Assembly: GCA_030595925.1 (NCBI GenBank)
Contig: JAUVLC010000122.1
Location: 1-7,020 of the forward strand
Source: Clostridia bacterium
GTDB taxonomy: Bacteria; CBDUZB01; JAGLHV01
DNA: 7,020 nt
Direction of reading: 5' to 3'
The position numbers and the translations under genes were made by a program. This document shows positions 1-7,020 of the stretch, one piece after another. Every line of letters begins with the position of its first letter. Within the stretch, counting starts at the first letter, position 1. The notes under the pieces were generated by a model. The model worked only from the letters and a program-made list of their open reading frames with translations, had not been told where the DNA came from and did not search any database.

Positions 1-137
1 TATCTGTTATCTGTTATCTGTTATCTGTTATCTGTTATCTGTTATCTGTTATCTGTTATCTGTTATCTGTTATCTGTTATCTGTTATCTGTTATCTGTTA
101 TCTGTTATCTGTTATCTGTTATCTGTTATCTGTTATC
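1..137. repeat. Heptanucleotide tandem array, unit TATCTGT (register TGTTATC), cut by the window edge
   Basis: Nineteen perfect copies of TATCTGT fill positions 1-133, followed by a partial TATC. Read in the rotated register TGTTATC (from position 5), the nineteenth unit ends at 137 and runs without a gap into the TATGGAC units that follow. The array has no internal variation, which suggests recent slippage or expansion. It starts at the window edge, so the true copy number is unknown. A 7-bp unit cannot keep a reading frame, and no gene overlaps it. An assembly may have collapsed or expanded it. Confidence 0.97.
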
Positions 138-234
138 TATGGACTATGGACTGTCGACTATGGACTTTTGTTTCTTTTTTTAATCTATGGACTATGGACT
201 GTCGACTATGGACTATCTTTTGTCATTTATTTTT
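138..234 (+). repeat. Heptad composite repeats downstream of pilT
   Basis: Two identical 28-bp composites, each TATGGAC (twice), TGTCGAC, then TATGGAC, lie at 138-165 and 186-213. A 20-bp T-rich stretch (166-185) separates them. After the second copy the 7-bp step continues with more diverged units, TATCTTT at 214, TGTCATT at 221 and TATTTTT at 228. The block ends 3 bp short of the pilT stop codon. This region would be the 3' untranslated part of the pilT transcript. It shows no GC-rich hairpin followed by a U-tract on the minus strand, so no terminator is called. Confidence 0.9.
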
Positions 235-237
235 TTA

Positions 238-1305
238 TCATAGCCCCTTCTTCTGAACTAATCTCTTTAAATCTGCTACATCCAATGAAGCGGCTATTGC
301 CTGGGAATAACTAATCTGGCGATGAATGTATAAATTATATAAAGATGCATTCATCGTCTGCATTCCATATTTTCCGCCTGTTTGAATAGCCATTTGAATT
401 TGTTCTATTTTTTGTTCCCGCACCAAATTTCTAATAGCCGGGGTTACGAACAACGTTTCACAGGCAAGTACCCGTCCTTTCCCACTAGCATGCAATAACA
501 ACTGTTGAGAAAAAATTGCCTGTAAAACAAAAGATAGTTGAGACCTGATTTGTGGTTGTTGATGGGGAGAAAAAACATCGATTATACGATTAACTGATTG
601 AGCGGCATCGGTAGTATGTAAAGTAGCAAAAACCAAATGCCCTGTTTCAGCAATAGTCAAAGCTGCTGATATTGTTTCTAAATCCCTCATCTCTCCGATT
701 AATATAATATCCGGGTCCTGTCGTAAAACATATTTTAAAGCAACAGAGAAAGCAGAAGTATCGCTGCCGACCTCTCTCTGATTAACAATACATTTACCAT
801 GTGGATGAACATACTCGATCGGATCTTCTATGGTTATTATATGTTGATGGCGATGTTGATTTAAATAATCAACCATTGATGCTAAAGTAGTCGTTTTACC
901 ACTTCCTGTAGGACCTGTCAATAAAACCAACCCCTTAGAAAGCTTCACAACCTCATACGCTACCGGAGGTATTCCCATTTCATCAAATGTCATTATTTTA
1001 TTAGGAATAGAACGCAAAGCCGCTCCTACAGAGCCCCGTTGTCTAAAAACATTCATTCTAATCCGGCCTATACTTTTTATCCCAAAGGATAAATCCAGTT
1101 CATCCTGACTTTCAAATTTTTCTTTCTGTTTATCAGTAAGTAAACTATAAATTAATCTTTGACAAATATCGGGGTTAAGACTGGGATAATCAAGGACAAC
1201 TATCTCACCATCAACTCTGAGAGCCGGAGGAGAACCTACTGTAAGATGTAAATCAGAGGCTTTTTTTTCCACCATCACCTGCAACAATTCTTCCATATTA
1301 ACCAT
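238..1305 (-). CDS. pilT: Type IV pilus retraction ATPase PilT
   Basis: Cytoplasmic hexameric ATPase of the secretion-ATPase superfamily that powers pilus disassembly (twitching, DNA uptake). The 355 residues match the family's usual length. An N-terminal PAS-like domain (about 1-110) opens with the typical ASDLHLTVGSPPALRVDGE. The RecA-like core follows: Walker A GPTGSGKTT (131-139), Asp box ITIEDPIEY (157-165), Walker B IILIGEMRD (200-208) and His box GHLVFATLHTTDA (222-234). AIRNLVRE (290-297) is the C-terminal retraction signature that separates PilT from PilB/GspE, and GMQTMNASL (314-322) is also typical. The ATG at 1305 is preceded by AAGGAG at 1315-1320 with a 9-nt spacer; the in-frame ATG three codons later is too far from that site. 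It starts 28 bp after the pilB stop, so the two genes are almost certainly cotranscribed. PilU is the main alternative name. Confidence 0.96.
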   Translation of the reverse strand: MVNMEELLQVMVEKKASDLHLTVGSPPALRVDGEIVVLDYPSLNPDICQRLIYSLLTDKQKEKFESQDELDLSFGIKSIGRIRMNVFRQRGSVGAALRSIPNKIMTFDEMGIPPVAYEVVKLSKGLVLLTGPTGSGKTTTLASMVDYLNQHRHQHIITIEDPIEYVHPHGKCIVNQREVGSDTSAFSVALKYVLRQDPDIILIGEMRDLETISAALTIAETGHLVFATLHTTDAAQSVNRIIDVFSPHQQPQIRSQLSFVLQAIFSQQLLLHASGKGRVLACETLFVTPAIRNLVREQKIEQIQMAIQTGGKYGMQTMNASLYNLYIHRQISYSQAIAASLDVADLKRLVQKKGL

Positions 1306-1333
1306 AAAACAAAACTCCTTTCTTTAAATGATT

Positions 1334-3079
1334 CTAATCAGCAAAAGTAACCCTCATCACTTCTTCCACTGTAGTAATACCCGCTAATAATTTTTTTACC
1401 GCTGCTTCCCTTAGTGTAAGCATTCCTTCCTCACAGGCTGCTTGTTTTACTACATGGGTAGAAGCCCGCTCTAAAATTAAATCCCTTATCCTGTCATTTA
1501 TCTCCATTACCTCATAACAGGCTAACCGGCCACGATACCCGGTATTGGTACAATTATCACAACCTTTTCCTTTATAGAGAGTAACATTATCTGCGCCACC
1601 TACCATTTCTTTCGTCACACCAAGACCAGAAACAGAATCAAAAGGTACTTCGTAAGATTCTTTACATTTTTTACAAATTACCCGCACTAATCTTTGAGCA
1701 ATTACCATAATAATAGTAGAAGAAGTTAAAAATGGTTCTATTCCCATATTATTCAAACGGGTAACGGCACCCGGGGCATCATTAGTATGTAACGTAGAAA
1801 AAACCAAATGACCGGTTAAAGCAGCATTAATAGCAATTTCCGCTGTTTCCGTATCCCGAATTTCCCCGACCATAATAACATCCGGATCCTGTCTCAAAAA
1901 AGAACGCAGTCCTGCAGCAAAGGTTAAACCAATATCCGGCTTAGCTTGTACCTGATTAATCCCTTCCAATACATACTCTACAGGGTCTTCAATAGTAACA
2001 ATATTTTTATCCGGATAATTCAAGGTAGAAAGAGTAGAATAGAGGGTAGTTGATTTACCCGAACCTGTAGGTCCGGTAACCAAAACAATTCCATAAGGAA
2101 TTTCAATGTTTTTATTATACATAGCTAATGATTTTTCTTCAAATCCTAACTTAGTCAAGTCCAAACATAAAGCCGCCGCGTCCAAAACACGCATAACAAC
2201 TTTTTCCCCGAAAGCAGTAGGTAAAATTGAAACACGCAAATCAACTTCTCTATTGCTTACCCTAATTTTAATACGTCCATCCTGAGGAAGACGCCTTTCG
2301 GCTATATCCAGATTGGACATAATTTTTATCCGGGAAACTACTGCATTTTGTAATTTTTTAGGAGGGGCTTTTGCCTGGTGTAAAACTCCATCAACCCGGT
2401 AACGAATTCGTAAAGTCTTTTCGTAAGGTTCTATATGAATATCCGAGGCTCCCATTTTAATTGCTTCACCTAAAAGTAAATTTACAATTTTAACTACCGG
2501 GGCATCTTCCGCAGCTAACGCAAGTGCAGCCACTTCCTCATCCCCTTCTGAATCACTTACTACTTCTAAATCATCCCCTTCTCCCGATTCCATTTCTTTC
2601 AAAATATCATCCATTGAACCCTTATCGGCTGATCCATAATACTTTTCAATAGCACTTTTAATTTCCGACTCGGAAGCAATAACTACGTTTACACCACAAC
2701 CGGTCATTAAACGTAAGTCATCCACTGCAAAAACATTCATCGGATCCGCCATAGCTATAGTAAGTACATTCTTTTTTTTATCAACAGGAATTACCATTTG
2801 ACGTTTGACCATACTCTCAGGAACAGACTTTATAACATCTTTTGGAATATCCCCATACTCATCTAAACTAATAAAAGAAATACCAAATTGTTTTCCTAAA
2901 AAAGCCAGAAGAACATCCTCTGAAATATATCCTCGTGCCGTTAAAATCTTACCCAACTTCATCCCTGTTTTTTTCTGTTCCTCATTGGCTTCTTTAAGCT
3001 GTTCTTTAGATATAATACCCACATCTACTAAAAGATTCCCTAATTTTTCCTTAATAACTGTTGCCGGCCTTACACCCAT
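1334..3079 (-). CDS. pilB: Type IV pilus extension ATPase PilB (GspE/PilB family)
   Basis: Cytoplasmic hexameric ATPase that drives pilin polymerisation through the PilC platform. The 581 residues fit PilB. The N-terminal MshEN domain (about 10-148) holds two 24-residue motifs of the c-di-GMP-binding type, starting at K12 and K41 and ending at Q35 and Q64. An acidic linker (about 150-185) follows, then the N2 domain around ASDIHIEPYE (211-220). The core has Walker A GPTGSGKST (336-344), Asp box VTIEDPVEY (361-369), Walker B VIMVGEIRD (401-409) and His box GHLVFSTLHTNDA (423-435). Two CxxC pairs (C469/C472 and C507/C510) form the zinc site of PilB/GspE, and GYRGR follows at 514-518. The ATG at 3079 has GGAG at 3087-3090 with a 7-nt spacer. 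A neighbouring pilT favours PilB over GspE of type II secretion. It begins 71 bp after coaD. Confidence 0.94.
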   Translation of the reverse strand: MGVRPATVIKEKLGNLLVDVGIISKEQLKEANEEQKKTGMKLGKILTARGYISEDVLLAFLGKQFGISFISLDEYGDIPKDVIKSVPESMVKRQMVIPVDKKKNVLTIAMADPMNVFAVDDLRLMTGCGVNVVIASESEIKSAIEKYYGSADKGSMDDILKEMESGEGDDLEVVSDSEGDEEVAALALAAEDAPVVKIVNLLLGEAIKMGASDIHIEPYEKTLRIRYRVDGVLHQAKAPPKKLQNAVVSRIKIMSNLDIAERRLPQDGRIKIRVSNREVDLRVSILPTAFGEKVVMRVLDAAALCLDLTKLGFEEKSLAMYNKNIEIPYGIVLVTGPTGSGKSTTLYSTLSTLNYPDKNIVTIEDPVEYVLEGINQVQAKPDIGLTFAAGLRSFLRQDPDVIMVGEIRDTETAEIAINAALTGHLVFSTLHTNDAPGAVTRLNNMGIEPFLTSSTIIMVIAQRLVRVICKKCKESYEVPFDSVSGLGVTKEMVGGADNVTLYKGKGCDNCTNTGYRGRLACYEVMEINDRIRDLILERASTHVVKQAACEEGMLTLREAAVKKLLAGITTVEEVMRVTFAD

Positions 3080-3150
3080 TTTCTTACTCCGAATTATTTA
3101 TTCAAATTATAAACTATTTTACTCTCTTAAATAAATCTATCCTAAAATAA

Positions 3151-3639
3151 TTATTTTGTCAATGCAAATTTTTTATTCAATGCTTCTTCTACAACCCCGG
3201 GAACTAATCCTTCCACTTTTCCTCCCAACCTGACAACCTCTTTTATTAAACTGGAACTCAAATAAGTATACTCCTGACTGGGCATTAAAAAAACACTCTC
3301 TATGTTGGAATATAATTTTCTATTCATTAGCGCAATTTGAAATTCATATTCAAAATCAGAAACCGCTCGCAACCCTCTAAGAATTACAAAAATATTTCTT
3401 TTCTGTAAATAATCAACCAACAATCCTTCAAACCGTTCAATCTTTACGTTGGATAACTTTCCTGCCGTTGCCTGAAGCATTTCTATTCTCTCCCGGGTAG
3501 TAAAAAGTAAATTTTTACCGGGTTTATCCACCACAGCAACCGTTATTTGATCAAACATTTGCAGTGCTCTTTTTATTATATCCAGATGACCATTAGTTAC
3601 CGGATCAAAGGTTCCCGGATAAACCACTTCTCTGTTCAT
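3151..3639 (-). CDS. coaD: Phosphopantetheine adenylyltransferase (PPAT)
   Basis: Catalyses ATP + 4'-phosphopantetheine to dephospho-CoA + pyrophosphate, the penultimate step of coenzyme A synthesis, in the cytoplasm. The protein of 162 residues has the family's standard length and a single nucleotidyltransferase domain. The ATP-binding motif is PGTFDPVTNGH (8-18), with the T/HxGH-type H18. K42, R88 and the stretch RGLRAVSDFEYE (88-99) match conserved PPAT residues. The YLSSSLIKEV segment (126-135) is the counterpart of the ISSS motif. I start at ATG 3639, which gives the usual MNREVVYPGTF beginning. A longer form from a TTG at 3654 is open, but that codon overlaps the GGAG ribosome-binding site. 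coaD leads the set ahead of pilB; a metabolic link to pili is not implied. Confidence 0.97.
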   Translation of the reverse strand: MNREVVYPGTFDPVTNGHLDIIKRALQMFDQITVAVVDKPGKNLLFTTRERIEMLQATAGKLSNVKIERFEGLLVDYLQKRNIFVILRGLRAVSDFEYEFQIALMNRKLYSNIESVFLMPSQEYTYLSSSLIKEVVRLGGKVEGLVPGVVEEALNKKFALTK

Positions 3640-3648
3640 ACCTTTACA

Positions 3649-3652
3649 CTCC
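3649..3652 (-). promoter_or_regulatory. Ribosome-binding site that decides the coaD start
   Basis: GGAG on the minus strand lies 9 nt upstream of ATG 3639. The alternative TTG (3652-3654) shares a base with this site, so it could not use it and has no good site of its own. This supports the shorter 162-residue CoaD. Confidence 0.85.
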
Positions 3653-3660
3653 AAAATAAA

Positions 3661-3689
3661 AAAGTTTTAAACTTAAAACTTTAAACTCT
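3661..3689. repeat. Near-perfect AT palindrome and short heptads upstream of coaD
   Basis: AAAGTTTTAA (3661-3670) and TTAAAACTTT (3673-3682) are exact inverted repeats with 2 nt between them. The stem would lie in the coaD leader, starting 21 bp upstream of the ATG. The same bases read as three 7-bp units: AAACTTA (3669), AAACTTT (3676) and AAACTCT (3683). The palindrome may therefore be a by-product of the heptad pattern rather than an operator. Confidence 0.6.
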
Positions 3690-3726
3690 CCGCCTTACAG
3701 ACTGGCGGACTGTCGCTCCGCTCCAG
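3690..3726. repeat. CCGCC hairpin repeat, copy 1
   Basis: CCGCC (3690-3694) and GGCGG (3704-3708) flank the 9-nt loop TTACAGACT. The unit differs by one base from copy 2 at 4115-4133. A second, overlapping stem pairs CTGGCGGA (3702-3709) with TCCG-CT-CCAG (3717-3726), leaving a 2-nt bulge. It is a GC-rich island in AT-rich DNA and part of a dispersed family also seen at 4114-4142 and 6823-6859. Confidence 0.8.
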
Positions 3727-3728
3727 CA

Positions 3729-3770
3729 ACTAATAGTTCACAGTCGATAGTCCATAGATAACAGACAAAG
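3729..3770 (-). repeat. Heptad block in reverse orientation
   Basis: Read on the minus strand, six contiguous 7-bp units appear in the order CTTTGTC, TGTTATC, TATGGAC, TATCGAC, TGTGAAC, TATTAGT. TGTTATC and TATGGAC match the plus-strand blocks exactly. This is the only clear block of the family in this orientation, so these modules can lie either way round relative to the genes. Confidence 0.85.
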
Positions 3771-3781
3771 AATAAAAAAAT

Positions 3782-3812
3782 AAATACTAAATCTGAAATA
3801 CTAAATTCTAAA
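3782..3812 (+). repeat. AAATACT-type heptads
   Basis: Four successive 7-bp units, AAATACT (3782), AAATCTG (3789), AAATACT (3796) and AAATTCT (3803), are followed by AAAC. They differ in sequence from the TATGGAC family but keep the same unit length. Confidence 0.75.
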
Positions 3813-3891
3813 CAAATTCAAAATACAAAACAAAAAAACAGGCACAAAGATAAAAGACTAATATAAAAACAAATAATAAAAACAAAATGTG

Positions 3892-3914
3892 TTTTGAACG
3901 ACTTAGCAAATTTT
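3892..3914 (+). repeat. 23-bp direct repeat, copy 1
   Basis: The core GAACGACTTAGCAAATTTT, preceded by TTTT, is identical over 23 bp to 4419-4441. Here it runs on into an imperfect hairpin: AATTTT (3909-3914), loop AGTG, AAAATT (3919-3924). An outer pairing of GCAAAT (3906-3911) with ATTTGC (3928-3933) is an alternative. A run of eight T follows at 3941-3948, but no plus-strand gene precedes it, so I do not call a terminator. Confidence 0.88.
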
Positions 3915-3982
3915 AGTGAAAATTAGCATTTGCAAACCGCTTTTTTTTAAACCTCAATTTAATCAATTTAAACTTCAAACTC

Positions 3983-4045
3983 ATATATCTGTTGTCTTTA
4001 TTCCGTTGTCTATGGACTATCGACTATGGACTGTGGACTATTTTT
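3983..4045 (+). repeat. Nine-unit heptad block
   Basis: Contiguous 7-bp steps begin at 3983: ATATATC, TGTTGTC (3990), TTTATTC (3997), CGTTGTC (4004), TATGGAC (4011), TATCGAC (4018), TATGGAC (4025), TGTGGAC (4032), TATTTTT (4039). The order, TGTTRTC-like units first and TATGGAC-like units after, is the same as at the left edge and at 4791-4832. The early units are strongly diverged yet the register holds. Confidence 0.85.
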
Positions 4046-4113
4046 TTTTACGTGCCCGCAGGGTAAAATTATGCGTCTAGAGAAAAACATATCTTACCTT
4101 TATTTTCCCCGTT

Positions 4114-4142
4114 CCCGCCTTACTGACTGGCGGACAGGCAAA
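4114..4142. repeat. CCGCC hairpin repeat, copy 2
   Basis: CCGCC (4115-4119), loop TTACTGACT, GGCGG (4129-4133). The flanks CCCGCCTTA on the left and GCGGACAGGCAAA on the right are both found in inverted orientation at 6823-6859, where a different palindrome sits between them. Confidence 0.82.
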
Positions 4143-4188
4143 CTCCCAATCTACAATTTCAAACTTCAAATTTTAAAACAAAAGACAA
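4140..4188 (+). repeat. AAACTTC-type heptads
   Basis: Seven-base steps from 4140: AAACTCC, CAATCTA (4147), CAATTTC (4154), AAACTTC (4161), AAATTTT (4168), AAAACAA (4175), AAGACAA (4182). Similar units recur at 4712-4746. Unit identity is loose, so the register is less certain than for the TATGGAC blocks. Confidence 0.6.
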
Positions 4189-4199
4189 AGAAAAAAACA

Positions 4200-4232
4200 G
4201 GCACAAAGGCATCAAGGCACAAAGGCACAAAG
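4200..4232 (+). repeat. 8-bp tandem repeat GGCACAAA
   Basis: Four units of period 8, GGCACAAA, GGCATCAA, GGCACAAA, GGCACAAA, are followed by G. A single copy with the same left flank (AAAAAAACAGGCACAAAG) is found near 3833-3849. This is a separate family from the heptads. Confidence 0.85.
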
Positions 4233-4307
4233 TTAAAAAAATAAAAATTAAAGACAACTAAAAACTTATACGCAGAATAAAACCTACGACTACCCCCCTC
4301 CTCTTAA

Positions 4308-4330
4308 TCTCCTCCCACAAGGGGAGGAGA
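4308..4330. repeat. CT-rich hairpin repeat
   Basis: TCTCCTCCC (4308-4316) and GGGAGGAGA (4322-4330) pair perfectly around the 5-nt loop ACAAG. Sequences of the kind CTCCTCCC-ACAA-GGGGAGGAG are common intergenic repeats in many bacterial genomes. No U-tract follows on either strand, so it is not called a terminator. Confidence 0.78.
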
Positions 4331-4418
4331 AACAAAAGAACAAAAAAACAACAGAACAAACTCTACAACTACAAACTAAAAAATAAATTTAAAACAAAAA
4401 AAATAAAGGTGAAATATA

Positions 4419-4441
4419 TTTTGAACGACTTAGCAAATTTT
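4419..4441 (+). repeat. 23-bp direct repeat, copy 2
   Basis: Identical to 3892-3914 and in the same orientation, 527 bp away. It lies 4 bp before the 56-bp double palindrome, whereas copy 1 continues into a different AT hairpin. Confidence 0.88.
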
Positions 4442-4445
4442 TCGC

Positions 4446-4501
4446 GTAGGGGTGGGCTTGCCCACCCTTTGAGTCTCTTGGGCGACCAAGGTCGCCCCTA
4501 C
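4446..4501. repeat. 56-bp double-palindrome element with GTAGGGG/CCCCTAC ends
   Basis: The outer ends GTAGGGG (4446-4452) and CCCCTAC (4495-4501) are exact inverted repeats. Inside are two perfect hairpins, each with an 8-bp stem and 2-nt loop: GGGTGGGC-TT-GCCCACCC (4450-4467) and GGGCGACC-AA-GGTCGCCC (4480-4497). A 12-nt spacer separates them. The layout fits a small REP/MITE-like element with no coding capacity. Related GTAGGGGCGACC-type palindromes are known in many bacterial genomes; no transposase lies nearby. Confidence 0.85.
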
Positions 4502-4651
4502 ATTTGGATAAATAGCCATATACTCGCTTCGTTCGCGTCATACATTGTCATAAACTATTTTTTGACTATTGTCTGACTACTTATGACTAATTATTAATAC
4601 TATTCGCCATTTGTCATTTACAGTCTTTTGTCTCTGTCTTTAATTTTTTTA

Positions 4652-4709
4652 AACTTATAACTAATAACTGTAGTTTCTATCTATGGACTATCGACTGTGG
4701 ACTATTCTT
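4652..4709 (+). repeat. Heptad block with AACTTAT-type then TATGGAC-type units
   Basis: AACTTAT (4652), AACTAAT (4659) and AACTGTA (4666) step by 7. After a shift of 2 bp come TATGGAC (4682), TATCGAC (4689), TGTGGAC (4696) and TATTCTT (4703). The same succession, AACTTAT units followed by TATGGAC units, recurs at 4756-4832. Confidence 0.82.
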
Positions 4710-4711
4710 TC

Positions 4712-4746
4712 AAACTCCCAAATTCAAATTCCCAACTTTAAATCCT
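4712..4746 (+). repeat. AAATTCC-type heptads
   Basis: Five successive 7-bp units: AAACTCC (4712), CAAATTC (4719), AAATTCC (4726), CAACTTT (4733), AAATCCT (4740). They belong to the same family as 4140-4188. Confidence 0.65.
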
Positions 4747-4755
4747 ATTTTTTTT

Positions 4756-4832
4756 AACTTATAACTCATAACTATTAACTTATAACTTTCTGTTATCTGT
4801 TATCTATGGACTATGGACTGTCGACTATGGAC
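4756..4832 (+). repeat. Eleven-unit, strictly in-register heptad mosaic
   Basis: Seventy-seven bases divide exactly into eleven 7-mers: AACTTAT (4756), AACTCAT (4763), AACTATT (4770), AACTTAT (4777), AACTTTC (4784), TGTTATC (4791 and 4798), TATGGAC (4805 and 4812), TGTCGAC (4819), TATGGAC (4826). The last six units are identical to 124-165. Three sequence families are thus joined without a register break. The block ends 10 bp before the stop codon of the barrel gene (4845-4843) and would be its 3' untranslated region. Confidence 0.93.
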
Positions 4833-4842
4833 TGTTCTATAA

Positions 4843-5985
4843 CTAAAACTTAAATGAGATGCTCATTAAATGATGCCAATCCGCCCACTGGCCGGCATAA
4901 TTACCGATTTCTTCTCCGTAAAAAGCATATTCCAGAAAAACAAATTTAAAACCAAAACTAGGGTATCCTTCATTAAAACCACCACGCAATTTAAGAAACG
5001 TATAAAGGTCATATTCCAATCCTAAATGAATCCTCTGATAAAAGTCTTTTTTCTTCCCGATATCAATTATATCACAAGCCAGAATTAGATTATCCACATT
5101 AAAATAAGAACCCTTCCAGTAATAAATTTTCTTAGGTGCAAAAGAAACCCCCAAATTCAGCGAACCATTAATAACCGAACTACCTCCATCGTCCCATTTT
5201 ATCTTTGTGCCGCCAAAGTCGGTCGCGGTAGCAGCAATTATCAATCTTTTATCCAACATCCTGTACATCCCTCCAAAATCAACCCCCATACCATAACCCC
5301 GGCGTAATAAATCATCAAACTCAACATCAACAAACTCCTCCACGCTCCGATAATCATCCACCTTATGTCTTTGAAGATATCGTATAGTCATTCCGGTAGA
5401 TAAGGGATTAAGTATCTCCTTGTAAAAAGGTAAATTGAATTCACGGCCTAATGAAAAAACTCCTACCATATCCGCTTCAGCGTGCGTTCCCAGTTTAGGA
5501 ACAAATATGCCCATATCCATATCTATCCGGGTTTTTGTTGCAGTATAAAATCCCAACCCCCAATTAAATAGACTTCCCGGATACAAAAAACTGAGATTGG
5601 TTCCCATCTTTATAATCCCTCTTCTATCACTTAAAATCTCATCTTTTAATCCATCAGAGGCATCTGCCCAATAAATATCCCCCTCCATTACCTCTTGCAT
5701 TTCGTCATCCATCAACAGTTCATATATTTTAAAAATATCATTATTAAAACCAATCATTAAAAAATTATAAGAAAGTTTCCATTTATCCAAATAACTCAAT
5801 CCTGCCGAATTATATAAAAGCACATCCTCATTATCGGCTATTCCCAGACCCGCCCCTCCCATAGACAACGCCCGTATACTCTCACAAACATGTCCCTCCT
5901 CTGCCCATAATGGAACGATTAACAGACAGGCAACAATCACGGACAAAAATATTATAAAAAATCTCTTATGGTAATTAAACATCAT
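4843..5985 (-). CDS. PorV/UPF0164-like outer-membrane beta-barrel protein
   Basis: Probable outer-membrane protein of 380 residues. A basic, hydrophobic signal peptide spans about 1-28, with likely cleavage after PLWA; C20 weakly resembles a lipobox, but hydrophobic residues continue past it. The mature start, IRALSMGGAGLGIADNEDVLLYNSAGL (37-63, quoted in two parts: IRALSMGGAGLGIAD and NEDVLLYNSAGL), is the hallmark of the PorV/PorQ/UPF0164 group. The rest alternates short beta-type segments such as LNLGVSFAP (276-284) and FGFKFVFLEYAFYG (344-357). It ends in SISFKF, a terminal aromatic residue typical of barrels handled by the BAM machinery. Two adjacent ATGs (5985 and 5982) follow AAGGAG at 5991-5996, with spacers of 5 and 8 nt; the second may be used. 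It begins 49 bp after the lipoprotein gene ends. PorV is a type IX secretion part in Bacteroidota, but nothing else of that system is here, so the role is unknown. Confidence 0.8.
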   Translation of the reverse strand: MMFNYHKRFFIIFLSVIVACLLIVPLWAEEGHVCESIRALSMGGAGLGIADNEDVLLYNSAGLSYLDKWKLSYNFLMIGFNNDIFKIYELLMDDEMQEVMEGDIYWADASDGLKDEILSDRRGIIKMGTNLSFLYPGSLFNWGLGFYTATKTRIDMDMGIFVPKLGTHAEADMVGVFSLGREFNLPFYKEILNPLSTGMTIRYLQRHKVDDYRSVEEFVDVEFDDLLRRGYGMGVDFGGMYRMLDKRLIIAATATDFGGTKIKWDDGGSSVINGSLNLGVSFAPKKIYYWKGSYFNVDNLILACDIIDIGKKKDFYQRIHLGLEYDLYTFLKLRGGFNEGYPSFGFKFVFLEYAFYGEEIGNYAGQWADWHHLMSISFKF

Positions 5986-6034
5986 TTTTTCTCCTTTCTT
6001 TATTTAAAAATTAAATATGAGAATTTTCATCCAT

Positions 6035-6739
6035 TTAATAATCCCATTGATAAATATTTTCTAAAATATCATCTACGACATCTTGTACTTCTTGAGTTTC
6101 TTCTCCCATTGCCAGAGCAATAGCTTCCACAGCCAGGGGCAATAATTCTTCTATTGTAGCAATGATATCATTTATTTCTGCTTCGGACAAATCACCTAAA
6201 TTTGTTAATTCAAAAAAACCATCCTGATTAAATTGCCACATAAGGTCTCTAAATTTTACCATTGGATAAGTTATTCCTTCTAACGCACAACTCATTCCAT
6301 AATCTATATAAATATTTTGCCGCTGAATACTTCCGTGACAACGTCCGTAATAAACATCGCCCAAAACTGTTCTTACTTCATGAGAAACATTATAAATAGA
6401 AACAATTTCATCATAAGGAAAATCGAATAAATAATCCATTGCTTCCTCTTCACTAAAATCCGCAGCTAAATCAAAAATATCTTTTTTTAAATATAACCGT
6501 GTATAAGCCTTCACATAACCGTACCGGGCATTGGAATTTCCCGGGTCACATTCCATTGCATCCCTAAACGCCGAAATAGCTCCCCCATAATTTTTGTCTG
6601 CCAAACATTGCTCCCCCCGGGCAATATGTTCATCAGTACTACCTTTAGGCCGATGCAAAAATTCAAAAATGTTGCAAGCGGTCAATCCTAAAACCAACAA
6701 ACAAATAGAAAAAATCAGCACTACTTTTCTCTTTTTCAT
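6035..6739 (-). CDS. TPR-containing lipoprotein
   Basis: Secreted lipoprotein of 234 residues. A signal peptide with basic start MKKRK and hydrophobic core ends in the lipobox LTAC, giving lipidated C22. The next residue is Asn, not the Asp used for inner-membrane retention in enterobacteria, so outer-membrane placement is plausible. A TPR-like segment lies at about 35-69, including ARGEQCLADKNYGGAISAFR and ending near DPGNSN, with a possible second helix pair to about 83. The remainder is acidic and mostly helical, and I do not recognise it. The ATG at 6739 has AAGGAG at 6750-6755 with a 10-nt spacer. It is the first gene of a pair with the barrel protein, so it may be an accessory or assembly partner of that protein. 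No specific function can be named. Confidence 0.82.
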   Translation of the reverse strand: MKKRKVVLIFSICLLVLGLTACNIFEFLHRPKGSTDEHIARGEQCLADKNYGGAISAFRDAMECDPGNSNARYGYVKAYTRLYLKKDIFDLAADFSEEEAMDYLFDFPYDEIVSIYNVSHEVRTVLGDVYYGRCHGSIQRQNIYIDYGMSCALEGITYPMVKFRDLMWQFNQDGFFELTNLGDLSEAEINDIIATIEELLPLAVEAIALAMGEETQEVQDVVDDILENIYQWDY

Positions 6740-6822
6740 TTTGTGTCTACTCCTTTCTTAATTATTTTCTTTCCCCCCTTGCTAATAACATTAGATTTAT
6801 GCAAAATAGTCTTTTTATCCTT

Positions 6823-6859
6823 TTTGCCTGTCCGCTCCGCCTCAGGCGGATAAGGCGGG
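6823..6859. repeat. CCGCC-type repeat, copy 3, inverted and with a different central palindrome
   Basis: On the minus strand, CCCGCCTTA (6859-6851) and GCGGACAGGCAAA (6835-6823) match the two flanks of copy 2 at 4114-4142. Between them, the perfect palindrome TCCGCC-TGA-GGCGGA (plus-strand 6836-6850) replaces the 7 bases CTGACTG of copy 2. Confidence 0.82.
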
Positions 6860-6861
6860 TC

Positions 6862-6881
6862 ATTCCTGCGGAAGCAGGAAT
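6862..6881. repeat. ATTCCTGC inverted repeat (REP-like)
   Basis: ATTCCTGC (6862-6869) and GCAGGAAT (6874-6881) form a perfect 8-bp stem with loop GGAA. It resembles the widespread ATTCCYGC...GCRGGAAT class of intergenic palindromes, of which neisserial dRS3 is a well-known member. It begins 2 bp from the neighbouring CCGCC-type repeat, so the two may form one composite hairpin element. Confidence 0.82.
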
Positions 6882-7020
6882 CTGTTATGTAATGTGTCAA
6901 GCCCTAATTCAAATGCTTTTGCAATAATCGGAACCGGAACTATCTGTTATCCGTGGCATCCTTGAAGTGAAAATTAAATAAATCTAAGCAAGGATCACAC
7001 TCATTGATTTTTTCGTTTTA

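Follow-up and report, generated by a model that had tools for sequence, protein, structure and literature searches.

A composite heptanucleotide repeat dispersed through the intergenic spacers of a bacterium from an uncultured phylum

Background

How can a stretch of intergenic DNA hold to a step of exactly seven base pairs while the letters that fill the step change along it? The question is raised by positions 4756-4832 of contig JAUVLC010000122.1 in assembly GCA_030595925.1, of which positions 1 to 7,020, a stretch of 7,020 nucleotides, constitute the window analysed here. The draft genome to which the window belongs, as contig C83, spans 2.6 Mb in 193 contigs (G000 hereafter) and was compared within its phylum to two further drafts, G001 and G002, both congeners; one contig of G002 is identical to JAGLYT010000119.1 ('bacterium isolate RS_13_36'). 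Genome-wide counts refer to 1.39 Mb of the 2.6 Mb, including 210 kb of spacers. The five genes listed for the window, all on the minus strand, code for a PilT/T2SSE ATPase, a PilB/GspE-type ATPase with a MshEN domain, a CoaD-like cytidylyltransferase, an outer-membrane-type protein (with a weak match to DUF5723) and a TPR-type lipoprotein-like protein. The block in question sits in a 1.2-kb spacer (3655-4842).

Results and discussion

Eleven heptads in a recurrent composite order

Examination of the block reveals eleven in-register 7-mers, exactly as claimed in the original prediction: AACTTAT, AACTCAT, AACTATT, AACTTAT, AACTTTC, TGTTATC, TGTTATC, TATGGAC, TATGGAC, TGTCGAC and TATGGAC. Matches at lag 7 number 51 of 70, far above the 19.9 +- 4.0 obtained from 2000 dinucleotide shuffles (p <= 0.0005), and the corresponding identities at lags 6 and 8 are 0.23 and 0.22. 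Three modules follow one another on the plus strand: L, comprising the first five heptads (4756..4790); V, comprising two copies of TGTTATC in register with both neighbors (4791..4804); and D, comprising the last four heptads (4805..4832). The end of D lies 10 bp from the stop codon of the gene at 4843-5985, which is on the minus strand. Folding of the block as RNA gave no significant structure on either strand (z -1.5 and -1.7).

The same modules recur in the same order, L (AACTNNT), V (TGTTATC) and D, with AACTTTC joining L to V, across the 1.39 Mb. There are 159 D runs, 95 of which have exactly four units, and two forms of the four-unit block predominate: form A (TATGGAC, TATCGAC, TGTGGAC, TATGGAC) with 38 exact copies, and form B, the one seen in the block (TATGGAC, TATGGAC, TGTCGAC, TATGGAC), with 23. 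The heptad preceding D nearly always ends in RTC, being TGTTATC in 27, and TTTAATC, CGTTGTC and TGTAATC in 15 each, of the 159 runs. The L-V-V-D junction AACTTTC, TGTTATC, TGTTATC, TATGGAC is found as an exact 28-mer at three loci (the window, L083 and L087), with at most three mismatches at 10 places, and with at most seven at 70 loci as against 5 for a reversed control. Given that this junction is identical letter for letter at other loci, the mixture of families seems to have been inherited by copying. Thus, the block is a mosaic in the sense that several unit types are joined in register, but the free mixing that the word 'mosaic' might imply is not seen, since order and junctions recur. 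Likewise, the families were described as unrelated-looking, which remains apt for L and D, as these have no obvious common core in register; V and D, however, have T1, T3 and C7 in common and match best in phase (0.43 versus 0.10-0.35 in other phases), and are therefore less unrelated than they appear. The central claim that length is kept while letters change stood up, in that the dispersed copies hold an equal number of heptads although the letters differ. The leading 7-mers in the array catalogue are of the TATGGAC, TGTTATC and AACTTAT types, and occasional expansions are also seen, namely TATGGAC x11, TGTTATC x20 and a 14-bp higher-order repeat of TATTGAC and TGTGGAC.

Further heptad blocks and other elements in the window

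The 7-bp step had also been claimed for several other intergenic blocks. It was recovered in the A-rich block at 3782..3812 on the plus strand (AAATACT/AAATCTG; 17/24 lag-7 matches, p 0.0005), in the block at 3983-4045 (p 0.0005) and in the A-rich block at 4140..4188 on the plus strand (AAACTCC/CAATCTA/CAATTTC; lag 7 0.62, lag 8 0.51, lag-7 p 0.0005), but not at 4712..4746, a plus-strand A-rich block in which 7-periodicity is unclear (lag 7 0.50, lag 8 0.52, lag-7 p 0.02). The step is real at further places in the window (1-138, 138-165, 186-213, 3736-3768 and 4682-4702). The first is a pure plus-strand V array (TATCTGT x19.7, 1..138) at the contig end, which is followed on the same strand by two form-B D blocks, one at 138..165 from the D-run catalogue and another at 186..213, 48 bp after the preceding one and out of 7-bp phase with it. 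A minus-strand D block (TATGGAC, TATCGAC, TGTGAAC; 3736..3756) faces the start of coaD, and the catalogue also contains a plus-strand D block of TATGGAC, TATCGAC and TGTGGAC (4682..4702). A further plus-strand D block (TATGGAC, TATCGAC, TATGGAC, TGTGGAC; 4011..4038) is carried within a dispersed intergenic non-coding element of ~228 bp on the minus strand (3883..4110); this element contains GGGTAAAATTATGCGTCTAGAGAAAA and TTTGCTAAGTCGTTCAAAACACATTT, and is represented in the 1.39 Mb by 8 near full-length copies, the window one included, and many partial ones. The same spacer as block 4756-4832 also harbors an 8-bp tandem repeat (AGGCACAA; 4199..4232), indicating that a unit length of 7 is dominant rather than absolute.

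Two additional elements were observed in or near these spacers. A REP-like pair in inverted orientation occupies 4445-4503 (GTAGGGGCGACC..GGTCGCCC and GTAGGGGTGGGC..GCCCACCC); a similar pair precedes coaD in G001, and it is absent from the G002 spacer. A hairpin element of ~25 bp, CCTGTCCTCCAGTCTGTAAGGAGGG, lies in G002 (L226, ~1242-1266) between GAATTTG and TTTAGAATTT, where G000 shows a clean empty site at window ~3808-3809 (minus-strand sense); elsewhere in G002, this hairpin element also occurs inside modules that are A-rich and heptad-like.

The lag-7 signal belongs to particular repeat elements

The autocorrelation at lag 7 of intergenic versus coding DNA, with shuffled controls, bore out the intergenic signal: stretches with at least 15/21 lag-7 matches cover 72 bp/kb of spacers, as against 3 in genes and 2 in shuffles, with other non-multiple periods at 4-15. 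Over the 210 kb of spacers the identity at lag 7 is 0.3295, compared with 0.30-0.31 at lags 6 and 8 and 0.29 in shuffles, and lags 14 and 21 come next. On removal of exact runs it remains the strongest in the full set of spacers (0.3185 versus 0.3017 at lag 6, 0.2977 at lag 8 and 0.2921 in shuffles). In spacers that lack a D word, however, an excess over the adjacent lags is essentially gone (lag 7 0.3017; lags 5, 6 and 9 0.2996; lag 8 0.2960, exact runs removed). Lag-7 arrays amount to 179 bp/kb in the 156 spacers (70 kb) that contain a D word, meaning TATGGAC or a near variant, and to 18.7 bp/kb in the 558 that contain none; most of the arrays left in the latter stem from a single contig (C7), and with this contig and contig starts set aside the value falls to 7.7 bp/kb versus 3-7 at other periods. 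As the signal is nearly confined to D-bearing spacers, the 7-bp step is a feature of particular repeats and not of intergenic DNA in general.

These observations bear on the proposal that selection acts on the 7-bp spacing itself, with a protein or nucleoid component reading intergenic DNA in 7-bp steps such that length is constrained and sequence is free. The dispersed copies and one orthologous block, in which length is conserved and letters change, are in keeping with it. Nevertheless, we consider it very improbable: spacers lacking D words show no clear excess at lag 7, the 8-bp repeat lies in the same spacer, and sequence is far from free, with two 28-mer forms dominating. Furthermore, neighboring D blocks are mostly out of phase, their start distances modulo 7 being 4 or 6 in 29 of 51 pairs, with 48 and 46 bp the commonest. 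The suggestion that 7-bp spacing is under selection, or subject to some mechanism, throughout intergenic DNA was accordingly not upheld.

Contig C7 (L053, 1-19184) itself carries a second, unrelated heptad system, with CTAAGAG/TAGAGCT followed by TATCCTG/TATCGTG, which takes up 35% of the contig's 13 spacers. The contig encodes contractile tail tube and sheath proteins, and has a gene composition typical of the genome; beyond it, the CTAAGAG word gives only scattered two-mismatch matches.

Orthologous spacers and the case for slippage and copying

The orthologous spacer of G002 could be aligned, the flanking proteins being 85-91% identical. In the orthologue of 4756-4832 the length of L is unchanged, and V plus D measure 42 bp in G000 versus 14 bp in G002, a difference of 28 bp or four heptads. 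The D block at 4011-4038 has an orthologue of equal length, with four heptads in both species, 3 substitutions in 28 bp and identical flanks; here too the number of units is kept as letters change. The four-heptad difference is the only cleanly aligned length change by a multiple of 7, and other orthologous array differences are either not multiples, such as the 46 bp between G000 and G002 at 3736, or unalignable. Indel lengths in 24 orthologous spacers lack a clear excess at 7, these spacers being few and heavily rearranged, and in the same set neither a D-block empty site with clear boundaries nor a target duplication was seen. Across the three congeneric draft assemblies a 21-bp D pattern occurs at 142, 24 and 7 per Mb, as would be expected of a spreading repeat.

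That the blocks are an artefact of assembly or binning is hardly credible. The sequences do come from a short-read metagenome assembly, and some contigs end in pure arrays, but in two species assembled independently of each other the blocks are internal to contigs and flanked by orthologous genes, and related heptad arrays are present in named genomes of other phyla (Mucilaginibacter, Nostoc, Anabaena). Long pure arrays at contig ends include those at window 1-138 and at the starts of L081 and L053, and 15 of 228 ends of sampled stretches have a lag-7 array of at least 28 bp inside 150 bp; the true array lengths probably exceed the assembled ones, given that some contigs terminate in pure arrays.

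In light of the above, we propose that the block is a copy of a dispersed, composite, non-coding heptanucleotide repeat that changes by whole-unit slippage and point mutation and spreads by copying, an account that we regard as probable, though by no means certain. Whole 7-bp units would be gained or lost through slippage in replication or repair, which might proceed in whole units because neighboring heptads still pair at a 7-bp offset. The units would concurrently drift by point mutation, and slippage inside an array that had already drifted could keep the period even as the letters change. The L-V-D composite, its D module having settled mostly at four units, may then have been copied to hundreds of spacers; if so, the mixture at 4756-4832 was inherited and not assembled anew. 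Copies appear to be retained almost only on one strand beside gene 3' ends. Several observations do not sit easily with this account. Most D runs have exactly four units, suggesting that slippage is not freely active, and the strict polarity beside stop codons is predicted neither by slippage nor by random copying. The single clean length change by a multiple of 7, the failure to find a bounded empty site or a target duplication for any D block, and the absence of an evident in-register core common to L and D also weigh against it.

Polarity of the D blocks at gene 3' ends

In all 54 D blocks situated 6-60 bp past a stop codon, the coding strand carries GTCCATA, and the 11 D runs inside the last 100 nt of long ORFs are likewise all antisense. 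In spacers between tandem genes, a D block close to the upstream stop runs opposite to the genes, and one close to the following start has their orientation; start-codon calling may affect the polarity on the 5' side, and leaves the 3' side unaffected. A looser test for period-7 GTC versus GAC gave 57:3 in G000, 13:0 in G002 and, among the matches listed in pattern-picked genomes, 40:9 in Bacteroidota; the same test yielded no significant bias, among the matches listed, in Cyanobacteria (19:10), Omnitrophota (8:3) and other groups (17:12). On the GAC strand D and V units contain no stop codon, whereas the opposite strand has one per 7 nt, TGTGGAC being the exception with none on either. This asymmetry might bear on read-through, but hardly explains a ratio of 54:0.

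One possibility is that the D block is a functional, polar 3'-end element, in which the mRNA sequence GUCCAUAG... past the stop codon serves as a signal for 3'-end formation, for stability or for an RNA-binding protein, and selection fixes the strand. The uniform orientation in G000 and the ratios in G002 and Bacteroidota argue for it; the weak or absent bias in Cyanobacteria, Omnitrophota and other groups (among the matches listed), the lack of significant RNA structure on either strand and the fact that only a minority of genes carry a D block argue against it. On balance we consider such a signal unlikely, though still with an appreciable chance of being right.

Alternatively, the heptad arrays could form the arms, GTC-type on the left and GAC-type on the right, either of large, imperfect hairpins or of a MITE-like element whose terminal repeats are heptads. 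Consistent with this, GTC-type runs precede GAC-type runs by 42:2 over all groups (for the other phyla, among the matches listed), the pairs being 21-68 bp apart in Bacteroidota and Omnitrophota (among the matches listed) and 187-260 bp apart in G000, and one G002 spacer has exactly matching arms, a rare TATTGAC unit included. Against it, only one D block is present in 45 of the 90 spacers that carry any, neighboring blocks share orientation by 57:12, and none of the 24 rearranged orthologous spacers displays a target duplication. The origin of the arrays as such arms is thus decidedly unlikely. Covariation of hairpin arms was considered separately and set aside: complementarity within versus between spacers shows no excess in G000 (p 1.0) and a weak one in Bacteroidota (p 0.04), and matching arms are seen at that one G002 locus only.

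Beyond the genus, the 21-bp D pattern matches at least 115 stretches in Bacteroidota, Cyanobacteria, Omnitrophota, Acidobacteria and more, a sample of phyla among the matches listed, whose genomes were picked by the pattern and do not constitute an unbiased survey. In the pattern-free spacers of the matched loci, lag 7 is again the richest period (31-109 bp/kb, with other words), lag 8 being next (8-42). An ACT/GAC core common to the heptads of all phyla was also considered: GAC is ~2-fold enriched in heptad arrays across phyla in these pattern-picked genomes, but ACT is not among the enriched triplets of Bacteroidota. Spread by phages was considered and rejected, as among 2.9 million viral contigs just 13 carry the D pattern. 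It is conceivable that several phyla have in common a polar heptad element of the skeleton GTCNNNN ... NNNNGAC, placed or kept in a fixed orientation past stop codons, a reading that we hold to be rather unlikely; were it true, either a role in mRNA 3' ends or a strand-specific process writing 7-nt units outward from gene ends would be implied. Similar polarity in other phyla would suggest that one process is shared, as opposed to chance repeats.

Relationship to known heptanucleotide repeats

The heptad blocks are of the known heptanucleotide-repeat kind: they consist of above-chance 7-bp tandem units, are mainly intergenic and lie at many dispersed loci. A 2007 survey, as cited in PMC4679880 and PMC4692102, found heptamers to be the commonest long simple sequence repeat in most bacterial genomes, and the cause proposed there, again as cited in these two papers, is slippage of a DNA polymerase with a contact of ~7 nt. 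The preference for 7 bp in long bacterial tandem repeats has so far been explained only by this guess about polymerase contact, and the present genus provides a natural test, with one composite family in hundreds of copies, two congeners with far fewer, and a polarity at gene 3' ends that is almost absolute. That heptamer repeats are known, as the original prediction noted, is correct; mixed heptamer assemblages, the feature that it singled out, have also been reported, in Microcystis and Elizabethkingia (PMC4679880), and an in-register mixture of like kind is seen in Anabaena azotica. No description of the composite order, of the four-unit core or of the polarity at 3' ends was found in the openly licensed papers searched.

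The heptanucleotide STRR or long SSR of Calothrix and Nostoc, as cited in PMC4679880 and PMC4692102, resemble the blocks in their 7-bp unit, intergenic location, high copy number and several units per genome; what differs here is the fixed L-V-D order, the settled four-unit D core, the strict polarity past stop codons and the placement in an uncultured phylum. The heptamers GGGNATC and GGGGA(C/T)T of Xanthomonas and Nostoc (PMC4692102) are likewise intergenic and vary in length and sequence between relatives, but the D, V and L units contain no G-tracts and hence have no quadruplex potential. REP/RAYT systems share the dispersed intergenic repeats and the Y1 transposase genes, for which there are 13 matches in G000, 3 in G002 and 0 in G001; the heptad blocks, however, have no GTAG-hairpin and no significant fold, and the REP-like pair at 4445-4503 is distinct from them. 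The TAACTGA repeats (MacGregor 2015, PMC4679880) are also intergenic heptamers found in distant phyla (Beggiatoaceae, Cyanobacteria, Bacteroidetes), and between two Cyanothece strains their indels are mostly in 7-nt steps (PMC4679880). In Beggiatoaceae, TAACTGA is found immediately upstream of start codons, oriented forward, and its one-letter variants rarely occur as repeats (PMC4679880), whereas the repeats described here are built of other words, lie mainly past stop codons and have variants as the rule.
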